Origin: Verrucomicrobiota bacterium
Lineage (GTDB): Bacteria; Verrucomicrobiota; Kiritimatiellia; CAIQIC01
Assembly (NCBI GenBank): GCA_004321905.1
Contig: SCQF01000039.1
Coordinates: 1-64,000, forward strand
DNA: 64,000 bases
Direction of reading: 5' to 3'
Shown piece by piece: positions 6,033 to 63,889 of this stretch; within the stretch, counting starts at the first letter, position 1; every line of letters begins with the position of its first letter. The notes beneath the pieces are model-generated. The model was not told the origin of the DNA and did no database searches. It worked only from the letters and a program-made list of their open reading frames with translations. The translations under genes and the position numbers were made by a program.

Positions 6033-6083
6033 TTTTCCAAGGGTTGGAAAACCGGCGGAACACTTTTTCCAAGCCTTGGAAAA
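6033..6083. repeat. Paired TTTTCCAA..TTGGAAAA palindromes
   Basis: Copy one at 6033-6051 (centre GGG) and copy two at 6065-6083 (centre GCC). The centres are 32 bp apart. The pair fills the gap between the oxidoreductase and the next minus-strand gene. Confidence 0.9.
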
Positions 6084-11741: not shown

Positions 11742-14062
11742 TTGAAATCCTCCAAACGCAGTAGGCGTCCACCTTTGTTGTGCCTGGCCAGCAAATCCAG
11801 CTCCACTTGAATGTCTTTGGTCGCCGGGTGCCCGGGAAACCGCGCGACCAATTCGTGTGCCAGCGTCGTAAACTCATCGGTGCGTTTCAGCGCCAGCAAA
11901 CACCGACTTTCCAACGCCATCGCCTGCGGCAGGTAGTTGGAAATTTCGACATTCTTGCGGTAGACCGAAAGCACACGCAGCGCACGCGGAAAATCGCCGA
12001 TGGTGGTATAAAACTCGCCCTCGCCGATGGGGTAGTCGCCGGCCAACTTGCTCAACGGGAATTCCAGTTCCCACGCCTCCAGCGTTTTGTGCGCTTCTTC
12101 GATGTCGCGCACCACAAGCTGGCTGTGCAGTTGTTCATAGTAGGCCGCCTCGCGCACCGCCTGTTTGCGCCAGTCATCCACCGAGGGCGCAATGGAGAAC
12201 ATTTTCGCCTCCCGCTTGCCGCGACCGCGTTCCCGTTCGCTCTCTTTTCCGGCCTTACCACCGGTCGCGGCAACGGACACCGTCTTCCTGGCCACCGTGG
12301 CCGGCTTTTTGCCGAGCGTGTCTTGCGCGGCACTATAAAACTTGGCCGCCGCCTCGGCCTCACCGGCAAAGCGTTCCACGTCGCCCTGGCGAATCAACAC
12401 GCGGGCGATTTCGTTGGACGTGGACAGGTGGATTTGCATGGTCTGCGCGAGCTTGCGCGCCGTATCGGGTTGATTCAAATCATTGAGCACAAAGTCCAGG
12501 CGGGTGAGTTGCCACTGCAGTTGACGTTCCCGGTTGGCGCTGTCTGCGGATTCAAACTTGGTCAGCCACTCCGCCGCCGCTTTCGGATTGCTGTACCGCA
12601 TGAGGTCGAAATAAATGTCCTCCAAGCGATAGCGTTCCACCGCAGACCGCCGGAGCACATCACTCCACGACCGCTCAAAAATTTCCTGCATCAGCGTCAG
12701 TCCCGCCAGCGGTTCCACCACGCCATCCAGGATGCTCCAAAGTTCCTCATCCCAGTTGGCACAGGGCCGTTGCGGGATTGGCACCGCCTGACAGCGAGCC
12801 ACCAGCGCCTTGCGATATTCCATCCGGTCGTTGGGCGAGTTGATCGTCGCGCGCGACGGCGTCTGGGCAAAATACACCCCACGGGCGCTGTGCGCGCTAG
12901 CCTTGTCCAGCAGCGCCGTCAAACCCACGGTGCGTTCTGCGGAACCATTGAAAATCCAGTTGATCTCGCGACCCGTCACGCGCAGCCCCGGCTCCGGCTC
13001 CCACGTATAGACCATATTGGTCGGCGCATTCGCCGCCGGCAGTGCACGAAAGGTGAAGAGATTCCACGGCCACGCGCGTAACCACAAATAACTTTCGCAC
13101 GACCATAGGAACGCAGCCGTCGGCGCGTTTTCGCGGGTCTCAAATTTATAGACCTGCGCCTGCCCCGACTGCACGTAGTCCTTCACCTCCAGCGTATGCG
13201 GCACCTTGTCGCCGGGCAAGCGCCAGCACAGATTGGCCTCGGCGGTATCGCTGCCTTTTTTGAAATGAAAATATTCGACCCGATGCAACCCGGCGCTCAA
13301 CTCCATCCAGCTCCCATATTTCCCGCCGGCGCCCTCTTTCCGCGCATGGACGCCGGGCCAACTGGCCACGACCTTGCCATCCAGCAGACATTCCGAACCA
13401 TCGCTGGAGATGGTGCACAGAAAAGTCTTCGCCTTCTTGGGCGTCTTGATCCAACCCGCATAATACGAGCTATAATCCGCCTTCGGCCCGAGCAAATTTT
13501 CGCACTGCCCAATGTACGGCGCGAGGCCCATCCGCACCCCACCCTGCCAGGCTTCCGCCGGAATTTGCTGCGCAGTGCTCATGCTGGCGTGGCCCATCTT
13601 CACCAGCAGCAGCAGACTCGGCTTGAAAATTGAATTGGGCCGATTGCCGAGATGCGTGAAACTGGCCGCATTCCGAAAATAAATCATGGCGCGACCGCCG
13701 CTCGGCTCTTCGAAGGCCACGGCGATGCCGTCGTGCAGGCTGAACCAGAGCACCTCGCTTTTGAGCGTCGCGCCATTGGCGTCGAGTACGACGGGATCGG
13801 GCGTGGGGTGCGGCAGCAGGCCACCATCGGGGATGATCGCCACGACGCCGGCCTCCGGGATGGAAGGCGCCGCCGTCATATGCACTTCAAAGCGGATCGG
13901 CGCGTCGGCGACCGGCCAGCCGGATTTGGCCTCGCCGGCGCTGACCGCAAGCGCGCCGAGCAGCACAATGGCGAGCGCTTTTCCAAGGCTTGGAAAAAGG
14001 AAATGGTGATTTTTCCAAGGCTCGGAAAAAGTCGTCGCGCGAGTGCGGAATAGAGGATTCAT
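11738..14062 (-). CDS. Large exported PA14/TPR-like protein of the MoxR operon
   Basis: A 774-residue protein. The N-terminus is odd: residues about 10-30 are encoded by a palindrome pair (FSEPWK...FPSLGK), after which a hydrophobic signal core (ALAIVLLGALAVSA) begins. Residues about 205-290 resemble a PA14-type beta domain (YYAGWI, DGSECLLDGK, GLHRVEYFHF). The C-terminal third is helical with tetratricopeptide character (EAAAKFYSAAQ, GEFYTTIGDFPRAL). Such combinations suit a periplasmic scaffold. It starts five bases after the upstream DUF4175-like stop and overlaps the next start. Exact function unknown. Confidence 0.6.
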   Translation of the reverse strand: MNPLFRTRATTFSEPWKNHHFLFPSLGKALAIVLLGALAVSAGEAKSGWPVADAPIRFEVHMTAAPSIPEAGVVAIIPDGGLLPHPTPDPVVLDANGATLKSEVLWFSLHDGIAVAFEEPSGGRAMIYFRNAASFTHLGNRPNSIFKPSLLLLVKMGHASMSTAQQIPAEAWQGGVRMGLAPYIGQCENLLGPKADYSSYYAGWIKTPKKAKTFLCTISSDGSECLLDGKVVASWPGVHARKEGAGGKYGSWMELSAGLHRVEYFHFKKGSDTAEANLCWRLPGDKVPHTLEVKDYVQSGQAQVYKFETRENAPTAAFLWSCESYLWLRAWPWNLFTFRALPAANAPTNMVYTWEPEPGLRVTGREINWIFNGSAERTVGLTALLDKASAHSARGVYFAQTPSRATINSPNDRMEYRKALVARCQAVPIPQRPCANWDEELWSILDGVVEPLAGLTLMQEIFERSWSDVLRRSAVERYRLEDIYFDLMRYSNPKAAAEWLTKFESADSANRERQLQWQLTRLDFVLNDLNQPDTARKLAQTMQIHLSTSNEIARVLIRQGDVERFAGEAEAAAKFYSAAQDTLGKKPATVARKTVSVAATGGKAGKESERERGRGKREAKMFSIAPSVDDWRKQAVREAAYYEQLHSQLVVRDIEEAHKTLEAWELEFPLSKLAGDYPIGEGEFYTTIGDFPRALRVLSVYRKNVEISNYLPQAMALESRCLLALKRTDEFTTLAHELVARFPGHPATKDIQVELDLLARHNKGGRLLRLEDFK
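13979..14029. repeat. Paired TTTTCCAAGGCTTGGAAAA palindromes inside a coding N-terminus
   Basis: Copies at 13979-13997 and 14011-14029 have centres 32 bp apart. They encode the N-region in front of the signal-peptide core of the 774-residue protein, so the insertion is in frame. Confidence 0.9.
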
Positions 14063-25964: not shown

Positions 25965-26102
25965 CCAAGGCTGCGGATTTTAAACTGAAGTGCAACCGCG
26001 GAGCGAAAAAAGGCGCACGGTCGTTGACCTTCGGCCGCATGGTGTTTGGACCAACAAACCACCAGCGGACGGAGGACGCCGAGGCGTTCCAGGCCTCTTA
26101 GC
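25965..26102. other. Gap with no recognisable gene
   Basis: Between the rpsT terminator and the decayed IS30 no reading frame with a recognisable product was seen. A truncated palindrome half (TTTTCCAAGGCT, 25961-25972) is the only clear element. Confidence 0.4.
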
Positions 26103-26400
26103 ATGGCTGAGCGACGCAACCTGGCGGTGTTACGGGAAAACGGCTGCAGCCTGCGGCTGAGCGGGGCGCTACTGGCGGGACGGAGCCATCGTGAGCCGAG
26201 TCACTAACCGCCGCATCCGCGGGATCACCACGATTGACGACCGCCCGGTTCACTAATGCTTCCCGAAAAACCGCGACTTCCGGACGATCACCGAGGCCGA
26301 GTTACGGTGGGTTGAAGGTCAACTCAACGCGCGGCCCCACAAACGCCATCACGACCAAGTCCCTAACGACCTCCGGTCTCATCGCCCTGTTGCCCTTTAG
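26103..26400 (+). pseudogene. Decayed IS30-family transposase
   Basis: Two conserved pieces of an IS30-type transposase remain. The N-terminal helix-turn-helix is seen in frame from 26103 (AERRNLAVLRENGCSLR...GRSH). After a one-base shift, VSRVTNRRIRGITTIDDRP recalls the linker before the catalytic domain. The C-terminal hallmark FPKNRDFRTITEAELRWVEGQ...ARPHK follows at 26260-26346, ending at 26400. Most of the DDE core is deleted and a TAA interrupts. Terminal inverted repeats were not identified. It lies just upstream of the FMN riboswitch. Confidence 0.6.
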
Positions 26401-26407
26401 CCTTGAA

Positions 26408-26455
26408 TCCCCAGCCCTGGAAAAGCCCACCGTCCGGTTTCCCAAGCCTTGGAAA
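26408..26455. repeat. Paired palindromes, first copy degenerate
   Basis: A degenerate copy CCCCAGCCCTGGAAAA (26409-26424) and a good copy TTTCCCAAGCCTTGGAAA (26438-26455), centres 32 bp apart, between the IS30 remnant and the riboswitch. Confidence 0.7.
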
Positions 26456-35107: not shown

Positions 35108-36079
35108 TCAGAAGATTTTGAACTTCGGCAGGTCTTGGATGTCCACCATGCCGGCGAGCCGCCCGCGCTCGTCCACGACCACGAGATCGTCAATGTTTTG
35201 CTTCTCGTAGATCGCCAACACGTCTACGGCGAGATCATTCTGCCGCACGGTGATCGGCTGGGCCGTCATCACCTGCTCAACCGTCATATCCGCGAGCGGC
35301 GGACCATCGTTCAAATGCCGCCGTAGATCACCATCGGTAAAAATTCCGAGCACGATATCGTTGGCGTCCACCACGGCCACGGCGCCAGCGCGCGCGCTGG
35401 TCATCGCCAGCACGGCATCGCGTACGCGCTGGTCGCTGCGCACCTTGGCCAGTCGCTCGCCGGTACGCATGATGTCCGCGACGCGTAGCAGCAGCGTCCG
35501 ACCAATCGCACCGCCGGGATGCAGCTTGGCGTAGTCCTCGCGCTTGAAGCCGCGCGCCTCCAAGAGCACCATCGCCAACGCGTCGCCCACGACGAGCGTC
35601 ACCGTCGTGCTCGTCGTCGGTGCGAGATTGAAGGCACCGGCTTCGCGTTCGACGGCCACGTTGATGACCACATCGGCGTCACGACCCAGTGCGCTATCCG
35701 GTTCACCCGTGATCGCGATAATCGGGACTTTCTGGCGCTTGATGACTAAAATCAGGTTCTGCAATTCTTCCGACGCACCGGAATAACTCAACGCCAACAC
35801 GACATCGTTGGGCGCCATCAAGCCAAGATCGCCGTGCATCGCGTCGGAAGGATGCAAGAACACCGCCGGGCAGCCGGTACTCGTCAGCGTCGCCGCGATC
35901 TTCTGGCCAATCGGCGCATTCTTGCCAACGCCGGTGACAAGAATTTTGCCGCGTTTGCGCAGGCCTTCCAAAATCAGGTCCACGGCTTTGGAAAAGCCGC
36001 CATCGAGACTCTCGCGCAGCCGCTGCAAACCGGCCAATTCGATGTCTATCACTTCGCGCGCTTTGTTGACGTAATTCAT
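35108..36079 (-). CDS. kdsD: Arabinose-5-phosphate isomerase (KpsF/GutQ family)
   Basis: A 323-residue protein. The N-terminal SIS domain (about 35-190) has VTGVGKNAPIGQKIAATL, FLHPSDAMHGDLG and LSYSGASEEL. Two CBS domains follow (about 205-320; VADIMRTGERL, VEQVMTAQPITV). It converts ribulose-5-phosphate to arabinose-5-phosphate, the first step of Kdo synthesis for lipopolysaccharide, which indicates a Gram-negative envelope. The ribosome site AAGGA is at the end of a hairpin inserted in a palindrome just upstream. Confidence 0.92.
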   Translation of the reverse strand: MNYVNKAREVIDIELAGLQRLRESLDGGFSKAVDLILEGLRKRGKILVTGVGKNAPIGQKIAATLTSTGCPAVFLHPSDAMHGDLGLMAPNDVVLALSYSGASEELQNLILVIKRQKVPIIAITGEPDSALGRDADVVINVAVEREAGAFNLAPTTSTTVTLVVGDALAMVLLEARGFKREDYAKLHPGGAIGRTLLLRVADIMRTGERLAKVRSDQRVRDAVLAMTSARAGAVAVVDANDIVLGIFTDGDLRRHLNDGPPLADMTVEQVMTAQPITVRQNDLAVDVLAIYEKQNIDDLVVVDERGRLAGMVDIQDLPKFKIF

Positions 36080-36088
36080 AGCTGTATA

Positions 36089-36157
36089 TTTTCCTTGGTC
36101 GCCTTAGGCGACCAAGGGTTGGAAAGCGACCGGCGCAACTTTTCCAGAGTTTGGAAA
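36089..36157. repeat. Paired palindromes, the first split by a 19-bp hairpin insertion
   Basis: TTTTCC (36089-36094) and AAGGGTTGGAAA (36114-36125) form a normal copy if the 19 bases at 36095-36113 (TTGGTCGCC-TTA-GGCGACC) are removed. The second copy TTTTCCAGAGTTTGGAAA is at 36140-36157, about 32 bp from the first centre. With its flanks the insert makes a perfect 11-bp stem at 36093-36117. Confidence 0.8.
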
Positions 36158-36173: not shown

Positions 36174-39100
36174 CTACGGCTCAACTTCCAGATGAAAATC
36201 CCGTTTCGCCGGATACGTCCACGTCGTCCACGGCTGGCCGTCGCGTTTGAACACCACGCCACCATCGGTTTTGCAGAAGCCGAAATCAATCACCTTCTCT
36301 GCGGTGTTCAGATGTTGCCGGAACCATTCTGCCCGTGACAGACCGGGACGTTGCCACGGCTCAAAGCGGAAGGTTTTGCCGCCATCGGCCACGACCAAAT
36401 CGCCGAGCCGAATGCGGTTGGAGTTATCATCGGCGTCGGCCAGCGGAAAACTTTCGTGGCCGTTCCAGAGGCCGATCCACCACGTATAGTGGCCATCAGC
36501 GATATGTTCCGGCAGCCGCAATTCATGCGGCCCATCGAGCACCTCCATGCCATTGGTCCACGTCGCGGTCGGCGTTTTCAGGGCGTGGTCTTGCAAAAAA
36601 ATGGTCTGCCAACCGGAGTAATTGTTGGTGGGTACGTCGAAGTGCACAAAACTCCGAAAGCCGCCGGGCATCGGCGTGCCGACTTTCCAAACATAGGAAA
36701 ATTGGATACGCCGCTTTTCCAAGGCTTGGAAATTTTCAACGCGCGGACAAATCGGCAAGCCTGATTGCCAATCGCGTGCGCGCCGGGCGTTGGCCAGTCG
36801 CAGTTCGGGCGCGTTGACAAAGTCCACGATCACGCCCTCGCGCCACACCGTGCCGGCGGCGAAATCAGTGTTCGTGGCAAACCAGCCGAATTGCGGCAGC
36901 GTTTGACCGGCGGCGGCGAAATCCTCGGCGGCGTTGTTGGCGGTGATCGTCAGGCCGTTGGCGTAGGTGATGCGGACGCGATTGAAGTCCCGCGCCTTGG
37001 CCGCAGCGGTGGCATCGGCCCACTGGCCGTTGACGAAATAGCGGATATCGCTGACGCGCTGATCGGCGTGGCGGGAGGTCACGGGCGTCATCAGATGCTG
37101 CTCCAGCCACGCCGCGCCGGGTTCCCGCCACAGACCTTGGCTCAGAAAACCAATGTGGCCATAGACGATTTCCTGCATGCGGTATTGATCGCGCGCGACC
37201 ATCGGCATCCCACCGCCCCACGGCGGGGTTTTGCCGTACCAGCGTTCATAATAACCTTGGCCGTGATTGATTTGCAGCGGATGGATGCGCAGCAGATCGA
37301 AGTCCACGGCGAGTGGCGCGTTCATTCCGTCGCGCTCCGGCCAGCCGGTGCCGAATTGCGCTTCGACGCCATCGAGCCAGCCGCTCCATAGCCAGTGGCG
37401 ATTGCCTTCCCCGGTTATGGGGCCGGAGTGAACGTCGCGTTCGTACTGCCAAAGTTTTCGATGTGCATCCCACACGGATTGGATTTGGCCCGCGCCCGGC
37501 ACGCCAGCCTGATGATCGAGATGAAACCATGGCGGCACGCACGAATGGACGTCGAGATAGCCGGCGGTCGTGCCATAGCGCCGGTGGATTTCCGGCGACT
37601 GCTCACCGGCCAACCGCAACATGACCGAAGGTTTGATGGCAAAGGACTGGAGCTGCGTGCCTTTGTTGAACCAACTCTTTTCGGGTTTTCCATCGCTCTG
37701 CAAGGCGAGGTCGTTGGTCGTGAAGTGTTCGTAGTTGGGATAATAGTCCACGTAGTTTTCGTGTAACGCGAACTGATGACCAAGCCGCTGGGCGGTTTTC
37801 GCGAGGCGCTGCATCGCCGGTTCGCCGCCTTGCTGGGCGCGTGCGGGGAAATGCGCCGGCAGACCGTTGTCATAGCCATCGCGCTGCCAGCTATGGAAGA
37901 TGATCAGATCGTTGCGGATGTCATAGTCCGCCAAGGTGTCGGGGCTTTGCGCGCTCGCGTCGAACGCGCTTCCGTTCCAGATATCCAGCACGATGCGTCG
38001 GCCCATTTCCGCGCGCCACGGCGAGGGCGGATTGGGGATGTTCGCCAGCGTCTCATCCACATGCCACGCCGCCGTGAAAATGAAGCGCTCGCGCAGCCCG
38101 TGCCGCGCGCCATCGGTCAACGGCTCATAAACCGCTTTGTCTTCGCGGAATTGCGACGCACCGGAAGCTATCCAGTCGGGAAAGCTACTGACGAAAAGAT
38201 TTTCCAAGGGCAGGAAATAAACATCGTGTTCGCAGTAGGGCATCGGTACGCGGTGCCGGAGCAGCGCGCCCCAATGCCCCGGATTCAACTCCTTGATCCA
38301 CGGCTGGTCGCACGTCATTTCGAGTACGAGGCTTTTCTGTTCCAGCCGCGCGGTAGTTTGCAACGCCGCTTGCGCGCCGCTGGCATTGGTGAAAATTTGG
38401 ATACACTCAACGGCGTCGCTCCAGAAAAGTTTGCGCGCCCGCATAGTGAGCGGCGCGACGGGCTGCGTCCACGTGATGTTCGCGCCAAGAACCAACGGAA
38501 TCTCGATGTTTTGGTCGCCCATCATCTGGGCATGCAGTCGAAACGCGCCGAATGGCGCGGCGGGTGTAGCCGCATCCATATTCCACGTATATGCCAGTTC
38601 GCCATCCGCACCGTGATAGCTCAACGTTGCAGTGTGACCCGCAAGTTGGGCGCTGGTCTTGCCGTTGAACCCGGAGAGCGGTGCCCAGCTTTTATTTTGC
38701 TTGGCGGAAAGCTTGCGCAAATCCAGCGGCGGCGGCGCGCGGAAGGTCGTCTGGGTTTGGAGTCCCGGCAGAACCAGCTTGCGTCCGATCCACAGGGTTT
38801 GATCGCAGACCGTGTTGTTCTGCGGGCCGGGCGTGACCTCGAAGCGGATGGCAACCGTCTCGCCCGCCCACGGCGCGAGGTCCACACGAAACGGTTGTTC
38901 GGTGCTGCCGTTACGGTGCTCTTCCCAAGCGGTGCGCCCGTTGATCGCAACCCGGTAGGTGACGCCATCGGATTTTTCCGTGCCATGCTGCATCATCGTG
39001 CAGCCTTCGATGGTGCCGGCGGGCGTCTTGGGCAGCTGGAGGGTGAATGCCTGAAATACAATCCCCGGTCCCTTTTTATGCGGCGGATGCATGAAGCAGG

Positions 39101-39326
39101 CCGACCGGTTGCCGGAGGTCGTGCTCGGCAGAGCGACCGCACCCGTCGCCTCATCGCGGAACCCCTCCACGCCAGTCTCAAAACTATTGGTGACGCCACG
39201 GAGGATGTAACCGGATTGCACCTGTCCGATATCGTCGAAATTCAACTCCGGTTCCAGCGGTGTAATCGTCGTCGCAGTAGCCGCAATCAGTGGAGCCGCG
39301 CAGATCGCCAACAAAAACGATTTCAT
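36174..39326 (-). CDS. Large secreted putative glycoside hydrolase
   Basis: About 1050 residues with a signal peptide (FLLAICAAPLIA). An N-terminal jelly-roll-like region (about 40-190) is followed by a beta-sandwich, then a central TIM-barrel-like region (about 430-720) with RRIVLDIWNGSAFD, LIIFHSWQRDGYD, HENYVDYYPN, YLDVHSCVPPWF and GEGNRHWLWSGWLDG. The layout recalls endo-alpha-N-acetylgalactosaminidase (GH101) or DUF5696-type enzymes, with candidate catalytic acids in these motifs. The family call is tentative. The start at 39326 is the first ATG before the signal and lies inside a 43-bp repeat. A palindrome pair is read in frame near residues 863-883. Confidence 0.5.
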   Translation of the reverse strand: MKSFLLAICAAPLIAATATTITPLEPELNFDDIGQVQSGYILRGVTNSFETGVEGFRDEATGAVALPSTTSGNRSACFMHPPHKKGPGIVFQAFTLQLPKTPAGTIEGCTMMQHGTEKSDGVTYRVAINGRTAWEEHRNGSTEQPFRVDLAPWAGETVAIRFEVTPGPQNNTVCDQTLWIGRKLVLPGLQTQTTFRAPPPLDLRKLSAKQNKSWAPLSGFNGKTSAQLAGHTATLSYHGADGELAYTWNMDAATPAAPFGAFRLHAQMMGDQNIEIPLVLGANITWTQPVAPLTMRARKLFWSDAVECIQIFTNASGAQAALQTTARLEQKSLVLEMTCDQPWIKELNPGHWGALLRHRVPMPYCEHDVYFLPLENLFVSSFPDWIASGASQFREDKAVYEPLTDGARHGLRERFIFTAAWHVDETLANIPNPPSPWRAEMGRRIVLDIWNGSAFDASAQSPDTLADYDIRNDLIIFHSWQRDGYDNGLPAHFPARAQQGGEPAMQRLAKTAQRLGHQFALHENYVDYYPNYEHFTTNDLALQSDGKPEKSWFNKGTQLQSFAIKPSVMLRLAGEQSPEIHRRYGTTAGYLDVHSCVPPWFHLDHQAGVPGAGQIQSVWDAHRKLWQYERDVHSGPITGEGNRHWLWSGWLDGVEAQFGTGWPERDGMNAPLAVDFDLLRIHPLQINHGQGYYERWYGKTPPWGGGMPMVARDQYRMQEIVYGHIGFLSQGLWREPGAAWLEQHLMTPVTSRHADQRVSDIRYFVNGQWADATAAAKARDFNRVRITYANGLTITANNAAEDFAAAGQTLPQFGWFATNTDFAAGTVWREGVIVDFVNAPELRLANARRARDWQSGLPICPRVENFQALEKRRIQFSYVWKVGTPMPGGFRSFVHFDVPTNNYSGWQTIFLQDHALKTPTATWTNGMEVLDGPHELRLPEHIADGHYTWWIGLWNGHESFPLADADDNSNRIRLGDLVVADGGKTFRFEPWQRPGLSRAEWFRQHLNTAEKVIDFGFCKTDGGVVFKRDGQPWTTWTYPAKRDFHLEVEP
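36684..36732. repeat. Paired palindromes inside the putative glycoside hydrolase
   Basis: A degenerate copy CTTTCCAAACATAGGAAAA (36683-36701) and a perfect copy TTTTCCAAGGCTTGGAAA (36715-36732), centres 32 bp apart, in frame (translated FSYVWK and FQALEK). The degenerate copy shows that pair geometry outlasts arm sequence. Confidence 0.85.
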
Positions 39327-54318: not shown

Positions 54319-54369
54319 TTTTCCAAGGTTTGGAAAAGCGTGTAGTTTGATTTTCCAAGCCTTGGAAAA
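54319..54369. repeat. Paired palindromes between rpmA and obgE
   Basis: TTTTCCAAGGTTTGGAAAA from 54319 and TTTTCCAAGCCTTGGAAAA at 54351-54369, centres 32 bp apart, between obgE and the rpmA terminator. Confidence 0.9.
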
Positions 54370-63684: not shown

Positions 63685-63686
63685 CT

Positions 63687-63733
63687 TTCCAAGGGTTGGA
63701 AAAAGTAGCGGTTCGTTTTTCCAGGCCTTGGAA
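63687..63733. repeat. Paired palindromes after top6A
   Basis: TTTCCAAGGGTTGGAAA from 63687 and TTTTCCAGGCCTTGGAA to 63733, centres 31 bp apart, just after the top6A stop. Confidence 0.87.
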
Positions 63734-63889
63734 GGTCGGCGGGTTATTGTGAAATCAAGTCACATAAAAAGTTCGCCTGGCACGTATTTCCCCGCGCCAG
63801 CCCGGTCGGAAAATTCTTTACGGTGTACGGCTTGCAGTCGCGGCTTTTTTTGTTAAAGTCCCGCGGACTTTTTAGCTGGAGATGAAGCC

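Follow-up and report, generated by a model that had tools for sequence, protein, structure and literature searches.

Several REPs are known to lie nested within other palindromes, namely GTAG-23 in T. roseum, GTAG-15 in A. variabilis and CGTC-1 in H. neapolitanus (PMC3733652), and the palindrome targeted by GTAG-23 is present in hundreds of copies in its genome (PMC3733652). REPs also serve as targets of insertion sequences, including ISPsy8, ISPpu9, ISPpu10, ISPa11, ISRm22, IS1397 and IS621; the REP-targeting elements surveyed belong to the families IS3, IS110, IS4, IS256 and IS5 (PMC1525189). Here, a related arrangement is described in a window of 64,000 nucleotides (the whole stretch of DNA that was analysed) from a 2.53-Mb genome. 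The lineage is Kiritimatiellota-like, as judged from the nearest kdsD relatives only (MAGs labelled Lentisphaerae/Kiritimatiellaeota, 79-83% amino-acid identity).

As in the nested REPs (PMC3733652), short hairpin repeats occupy one set position within a palindrome. In contrast to those systems, the hairpins in this genome lack a GTAG/CGTC tag, number one to four per type and comprise several unrelated types at one point. The locus also shares with the surveyed insertion-sequence targets (PMC1525189) the interruption of high-copy extragenic palindromes at a fixed point, which in one described case is the symmetry axis, whereas the elements involved here are IS200/IS605-like (Y1) and IS30-like and the host belongs to a Kiritimatiellota-like lineage. 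Finally, extragenic pairs, mirrored asymmetry and a spacer less conserved than the palindromes are features in common with REPINs and BIMEs (PMC3116915, PMC2817692), from which the present family differs in having a spacer of constant length (15 nt, giving a 32-bp period) whose sequences are essentially unrelated, and in showing neither compensatory arm changes nor a link to the number of Y1 genes. REPs nested in palindromes are already known, as are insertion sequences within REPs; what is new is an untagged, phased family that hosts four very small hairpins along with a Y1 element and IS30-like elements. A literature search for the palindrome motif and for Kiritimatiellota repeats returned nothing relevant, and the papers searched yielded no description of a REP system in the lineage.

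The host palindrome family

The host palindrome, TTTCCAANNNTTGGAAA, occurs in 33 copies in the window when up to two mismatches are allowed (0.14 expected) and in 1,111 copies in the genome with at most one mismatch (0 for the reversed control). Statistics for the family are based on a 462-kb sample and on whole-genome pattern searches of the MAG, which is 94% complete, with crude gene calls. Most copies form pairs exactly 32 bp apart, as seen at 6034-6082, 13980-14028, 54320-54368 and 63686-63734. In the 462-kb sample, successive copies are separated by 32 bp in 82 cases, 31 bp in nine, 33 bp in two and 64 bp in four, and 98 of 144 palindromes belong to groups of two or three. According to the crude gene calls, 107 of these 144 are intergenic. 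Distances from element to stop codon in the same sample are 0-20 nt for 67 of 109, and 24 elements were counted against 29 convergent gaps measuring 49 bp or more. The palindrome is therefore a REP by its shortness, its copy number above 100, its mostly extragenic position and its frequent pairing. The GTAG/CGTC tag of the tagged REP superfamilies is absent at the feet of both the host palindrome and the four types of insert found within it (A-D, described below).

The sequence of the 15-nt spacer is essentially random. Changes within the arms are one-sided (about 106), with no compensated double changes across arms and two within arms, and thus do not point to selection for a long hairpin; compensatory changes between the arms, sought as a mark of an RNA or DNA hairpin under selection, were not found. 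Across relatives, the number of Y1_Tnp genes does not correlate with the number of palindromes. Given no compensatory arm changes and no link to RAYT/Y1 counts, the palindrome does not qualify as a REPIN. The loop triplets are weakly mirrored within a pair, GGC first and GCC second (22 observed versus 15.7 expected, p 0.04). Exact palindrome copies range from 162 to 1,010 in genomes of the same genus and from 0 to 452 in the order's other families.

An outside possibility is that the approximately 1,000 palindromes act as cooperative sites of a putative chromosome-organising or 3'-end protein, and that mobile elements of several kinds (a Y1 insertion sequence, IS30-like elements and four hairpin types) each came to use the accessible sites made by this protein as a safe landing pad, so that the hairpins would mark such sites. 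This idea draws on the phasing of the pairs (three helical turns), the random spacers and the concentration just past stop codons. Because the pairs keep a fixed 32-bp distance while their spacers are random, this genome offers a direct test of what REPs bind. Other spacings were observed elsewhere: in an order relative, the palindrome has a different layout, in arrays whose spacing alternates between 22 and 30 bp and whose cores are of the TTTCCAAYSATTGGAAA type (for example G009:C9:34616-34706), and paired palindromes with 31-bp spacing are present in the IMG/VR contigs L171 (3428-3506) and L172 (10588-10635).

A 19-nt hairpin inside a palindrome copy

At 36089-36125, the sequence consists of TTTTCC, TTGGTCGCCTTAGGCGACC and AAGGGTTGGAAA in succession. 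Removal of the 19 nt at 36095-36113 yields TTTTCCAAGGGTTGGAAA, an exact member of TTTCCAANNNTTGGAAA, which bears out the proposal of an earlier sequence-only reading that a hairpin had been inserted precisely into a palindrome copy. On the forward strand, the host palindrome TTTCCAAGGGTTGGAAA begins with TTTCC (36090-36094) and resumes after the insert with AAGGGTTGGAAA (36114-36125), both parts being assigned from the sequence read and the family search. The insert itself, TTGGTCGCC-TTA-GGCGACC (36095-36113, forward strand), is referred to as type A and recurs three more times in the genome, always at this same point of the palindrome. It is followed by a pair spacer of fixed length and variable sequence (15 nt, 36126-36140) and by the partner palindrome TTTCCAGAGTTTGGAAA at canonical spacing (36141-36157, forward strand). 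Split copy and partner are thus 15 nt apart, as across the palindrome family, and the retained spacing argues that the palindrome is older than the insert. Together with the huge size of the family, this spacing sustains the earlier claim that the palindrome existed first, so that both the nesting and its order, palindrome first and hairpin second, are supported by sequence comparison. The nesting also provides a relative date, with hairpins younger than palindromes.

The insert and its host flanks together make a perfect stem (36093-36117) that can be drawn with 11 bp and a TTA loop or with 12 bp and a 1-nt loop; in the window copy, pairing of CCTTGGTCGCC-TTA-GGCGACCAAGG is perfect. Two perfect stems of at least 11 bp with a loop of at most 5 nt are present in the 64 kb, relative to a shuffle mean of 0.45, and the stem by itself is therefore just mildly improbable. 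What makes the locus significant is that the palindrome is restored exactly, that its partner still lies 15 nt away and that the insert has further copies.

These copies were located by a genome search for GGTCGCCTTAGGCGACC with up to two mismatches, which returned four sites: the window copy, C48:20567, C82:45386 and C57:142. All four inserts are 19 nt long and occupy the same position, TTTCC^AANNNTTGGAAA (equivalently TTTCCAANNNTTGG^AAA), and at every locus a partner palindrome still lies 15 nt away. The copies differ from one another at 1-4 of 19 nt. Their hosts have four different NNN triplets (GGG, GGC, GCC and GGT), and spacers and outer flanks are unrelated. In C57, both palindromes of the pair are occupied, one by an IS200-like element and the other by hairpin A. 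A search of seven related genomes that also carry the palindrome recovered no type A. In viral contigs, the two exact matches to the type-A core lie outside any palindrome and were rejected as chance.

In three of the four copies, GAGG is present where the window copy has AAGG, and the perfect 11-bp stem is accordingly private to the window copy. The other three copies have in common a 6-bp core, GTCGCC/GGCGAC; the outer stem is kept in C48 and C57 only via a G-U wobble, on one strand, and is mismatched in C82. The perfect 11-bp stem noted earlier upstream of kdsD is thus real in the window copy, whereas the shared feature of the type is the shorter core. This difference also bears on whether the insert could have arisen in place, by replication template switching at the palindrome arm with fold-back copying of CCTTGGTCGCCT and no mobile element. 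In favour of such an event, the window copy folds back perfectly and has fewer bases than type B, with which it has CCTTGGTCGCCT in common. However, independent fold-back is not expected to give the same 19-nt sequence at four unrelated loci, and perfect fold-back predicts AAGG where three of four copies have GAGG, so that the perfection of the window copy looks secondary. We consider this origin most improbable.

The reading that we favour, and regard as probable, is that the 19-nt hairpin, a short REP-like insert of the non-autonomous kind, landed at a fixed point in a pre-existing paired extragenic palindrome, and that the palindrome family is a REP/BIME-like hot spot.

The insert upstream of kdsD

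The split palindrome lies 10 nt from the ATG of kdsD/kpsF (35108-36079, reverse strand), which encodes an arabinose-5-phosphate isomerase (SIS plus two CBS). On its other side is a co-directional upstream gene (36174-39326, reverse strand), and the palindrome pair starts 16 nt past the stop codon of this gene, the usual position for the family. This setting raises the alternative that the hairpin is a fixed RNA element of kdsD, regulatory or structural, which controls translation by covering the Shine-Dalgarno sequence, or that it is a terminator of the upstream gene. In agreement with a role at kdsD, the leader RNA folds much better than shuffled sequences (z -4.3). The 11-bp stem covers the bases CCAAGGA, which lie 10-20 nt ahead of the ATG, and the Shine-Dalgarno AAGGA is located at the stem foot. 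In addition, the type-A copy in C82 is likewise found just before a start codon. In contrast, the copies in C48 and C57 are located just after the stop codons of unrelated genes, and the split palindrome and its insert are absent upstream of kdsD in relatives (L063-L067), which counts against a fixed regulatory hairpin. Neither strand of the locus has the GC stem and trailing T run of an intrinsic terminator (0 sites), no promoter-like site there is convincing, and the single Rfam match is far under the curated cut-off and off the hairpin. The sequence-only reading had stated that a fixed regulatory hairpin would be favoured by a lack of further copies combined with the same split arrangement in all relatives; the outcome was the reverse on both counts, with three further copies in the genome and a kdsD without the split copy in relatives. 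A fixed hairpin of this kind is thus very unlikely. The strong leader fold with the Shine-Dalgarno at the stem foot suggests that translation of kdsD may be affected, and the predicted covering of AAGGA would be a local side effect of the hairpin rather than the reason for its existence.

Other occupants of the same palindrome

Four types of hairpin (A-D) are found at this palindrome point, in 11 cases in all. Type B (TCGCCTYTGGCGCCGCCGRAGGCGGGTAAACC) is present in three copies, at C5:3703, C22:31510 and C27:31428, and is inserted before a repeated TTGG. In the C22 copy (L106), a private variant, CTGG, is observed on both sides of the insert, resembling a target duplication. Type C (C5:88747, C20:45604 and a shortened copy at C42:2786) and type D (C36:211097) both start after TTGG and end with GG before AAA. 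Type D is also found at the same palindrome point in a genome of the same genus, G001, where two copies have a common spacer and flanks and hence represent one insertion and one block duplication. This type-D match and a type-C-like hairpin in G002 are the only convincing results of broad insert searches in relatives; the remaining matches were rejected as mostly chance patterns.

Duplications at the insert edges, where the sequence-only reading had advised looking for target-site features, are of only 2-3 nt (GG/GGA) outside type B. Except in type B, they could be due to chance or microhomology. Free copies of the hairpin, also looked for by the sequence-only reading, were not recovered: a search of the genome gave none for types A-D, and all further type-A copies lie inside palindromes. 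Each of the four hairpins might consequently be a variant of the palindrome arm that spreads along with it.

This absence of free copies would fit an alternative in which hairpin and palindrome constitute one 36-bp element variant, propagated whole by the process that spreads the palindrome and without separate insertion of the hairpin, and the type-D pair of G001, duplicated as a block with its spacer and flanks, would fit as well. Unit copying is nevertheless unlikely. The type-A host NNN differ at 44% of positions versus 13% for the inserts, and at this insert divergence the probability of four different NNN is ~0.26 for four random palindromes as opposed to ~0.02 for one copied composite. 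Moreover, the spacers and outer flanks of the type-A loci are unrelated, the partner is on the intact side at three of the four loci and on the opposite side in C82, and the type-B copy L106 has the private CTGG of its host on both sides of the insert. The earlier conclusion that at least two active short-hairpin systems are implied can thus be kept in part. The hairpin is separate from the palindrome, with four copies in four palindromes that differ in NNN and flanks, but the two systems are unequal, the palindrome being the landing site for at least four hairpin types and two kinds of insertion sequence, more systems than the earlier reading counted. The word "active" is not supported, as the type-A copies have diverged, free copies number zero and no insertion event was seen.

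Of the two kinds of insertion sequence, the IS200/IS605-like element was recognized at the ends of contigs C5 (L181), C9, C57 (L182), C66, C47 (L178), C63 (L189), C82 and others; most contig ends of this MAG consist of repeat copies, and contigs below ~3 kb were masked. The left end of the element follows TTTTCCAA in 8 of 8 cases and the right end precedes NNNTTGGAAA in 8 of 9, for a total of 16 of 17 contig-end copies, which indicates a target TTTTCCAA^NNNTTGGAAA without duplication. Most copies thus interrupt the palindrome at one position (16 of 17 ends), as is characteristic of REP-targeting insertion sequences. Subterminal hairpins are present near both ends (CCCCGTGGCTTGCCACGGGG and CCCCGCGGCTTGCCGCGGGG). 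An N-terminal transposase piece matches the IS200/IS605 transposase model NF033573 (E 3e-5), with a score below the full-length cut-off because the protein piece is truncated, and another protein piece resembles the end of an IS200/IS605-type transposase. The Y1 transposase, the subterminal hairpins and the fixed 3' target without duplication agree with the IS200/IS605 family, the Y1 catalytic residues being outside the sequence seen since the contigs break inside the gene.

The IS30-like ends adjoin palindrome halves in 3 of 3 cases, and a related end does likewise at C71s and C79e; this assignment was made by eye from a short RPRKRHGYxAPSDL-type C-terminus, and Pfam and NCBIfam gave no confirmation. 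In the window, a decayed IS30-like element, whose terminal inverted repeats are imperfect, is located within a palindrome at 25971-26414 (approximate ends; TTTTTCCAAG-G[IS]CC-CTGGAAAA), and the partner of the interrupted palindrome is 15 nt away (26439-26455, forward strand). Y1 (IS200/IS605-like) and IS30-like elements would thereby join the insertion sequences known to target such repeats, and a single short palindrome can receive mobile DNA of unrelated origin, here two kinds of insertion sequence and several tiny hairpins.

Under the favoured reading of a non-autonomous insert, the abundant paired palindrome family was in place first, and a short hairpin then landed at TTTCC^AANNNTTGGAAA of an existing copy, with IS200/IS605-like and IS30-like elements using neighbouring points of the same palindrome. 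The order of events, the recurrence, the site specificity and the shared use of the site are demonstrated at the level of sequence. We infer that the hairpins would be inserted by a transposase that recognizes the palindrome half-site; a single-strand (Y1) enzyme is the most plausible mover, based on the hairpin-bearing inserts and on the little or no target duplication. Counting against the favoured reading are the lack of free copies, the shortness of the edge duplications outside type B, a 2-nt offset between the hairpin insertion point (TTTCC^AA) and that of the Y1 element (TTTCCAA^NNN), the unlinked numbers of Y1 genes and palindromes, and the missing type A in the seven other genomes.

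Additional repeats were seen in the same genome. A Y1 transposase gene at C36:73272-73864 (L116) has the hairpin AGCCTAGGGC...GCCCTAGGCT on both sides, in the layout of a REP/RAYT unit; at this locus (C36:73437), one of six own-genome Y1 matches, the flanking hairpin differs from inserts A-D. Other contig-end repeats, such as the GGAAACGCTCTA family (~20 ends), are not next to palindromes. A perfect 26-bp palindrome at 25-50 of the window, TTGGCCCACGGGTACCCGTGGGCCAA, was considered as another composite and rejected; it is part of a repeat that several contig ends carry and recurs at the ends of C75 and C85. Finally, the contig ends C68s, C18e and C23s overlap by 31 nt and are mostly in palindromes too, which suggests a short (~215 bp) derivative of the IS200/IS605-like element that has both ends and no transposase gene.
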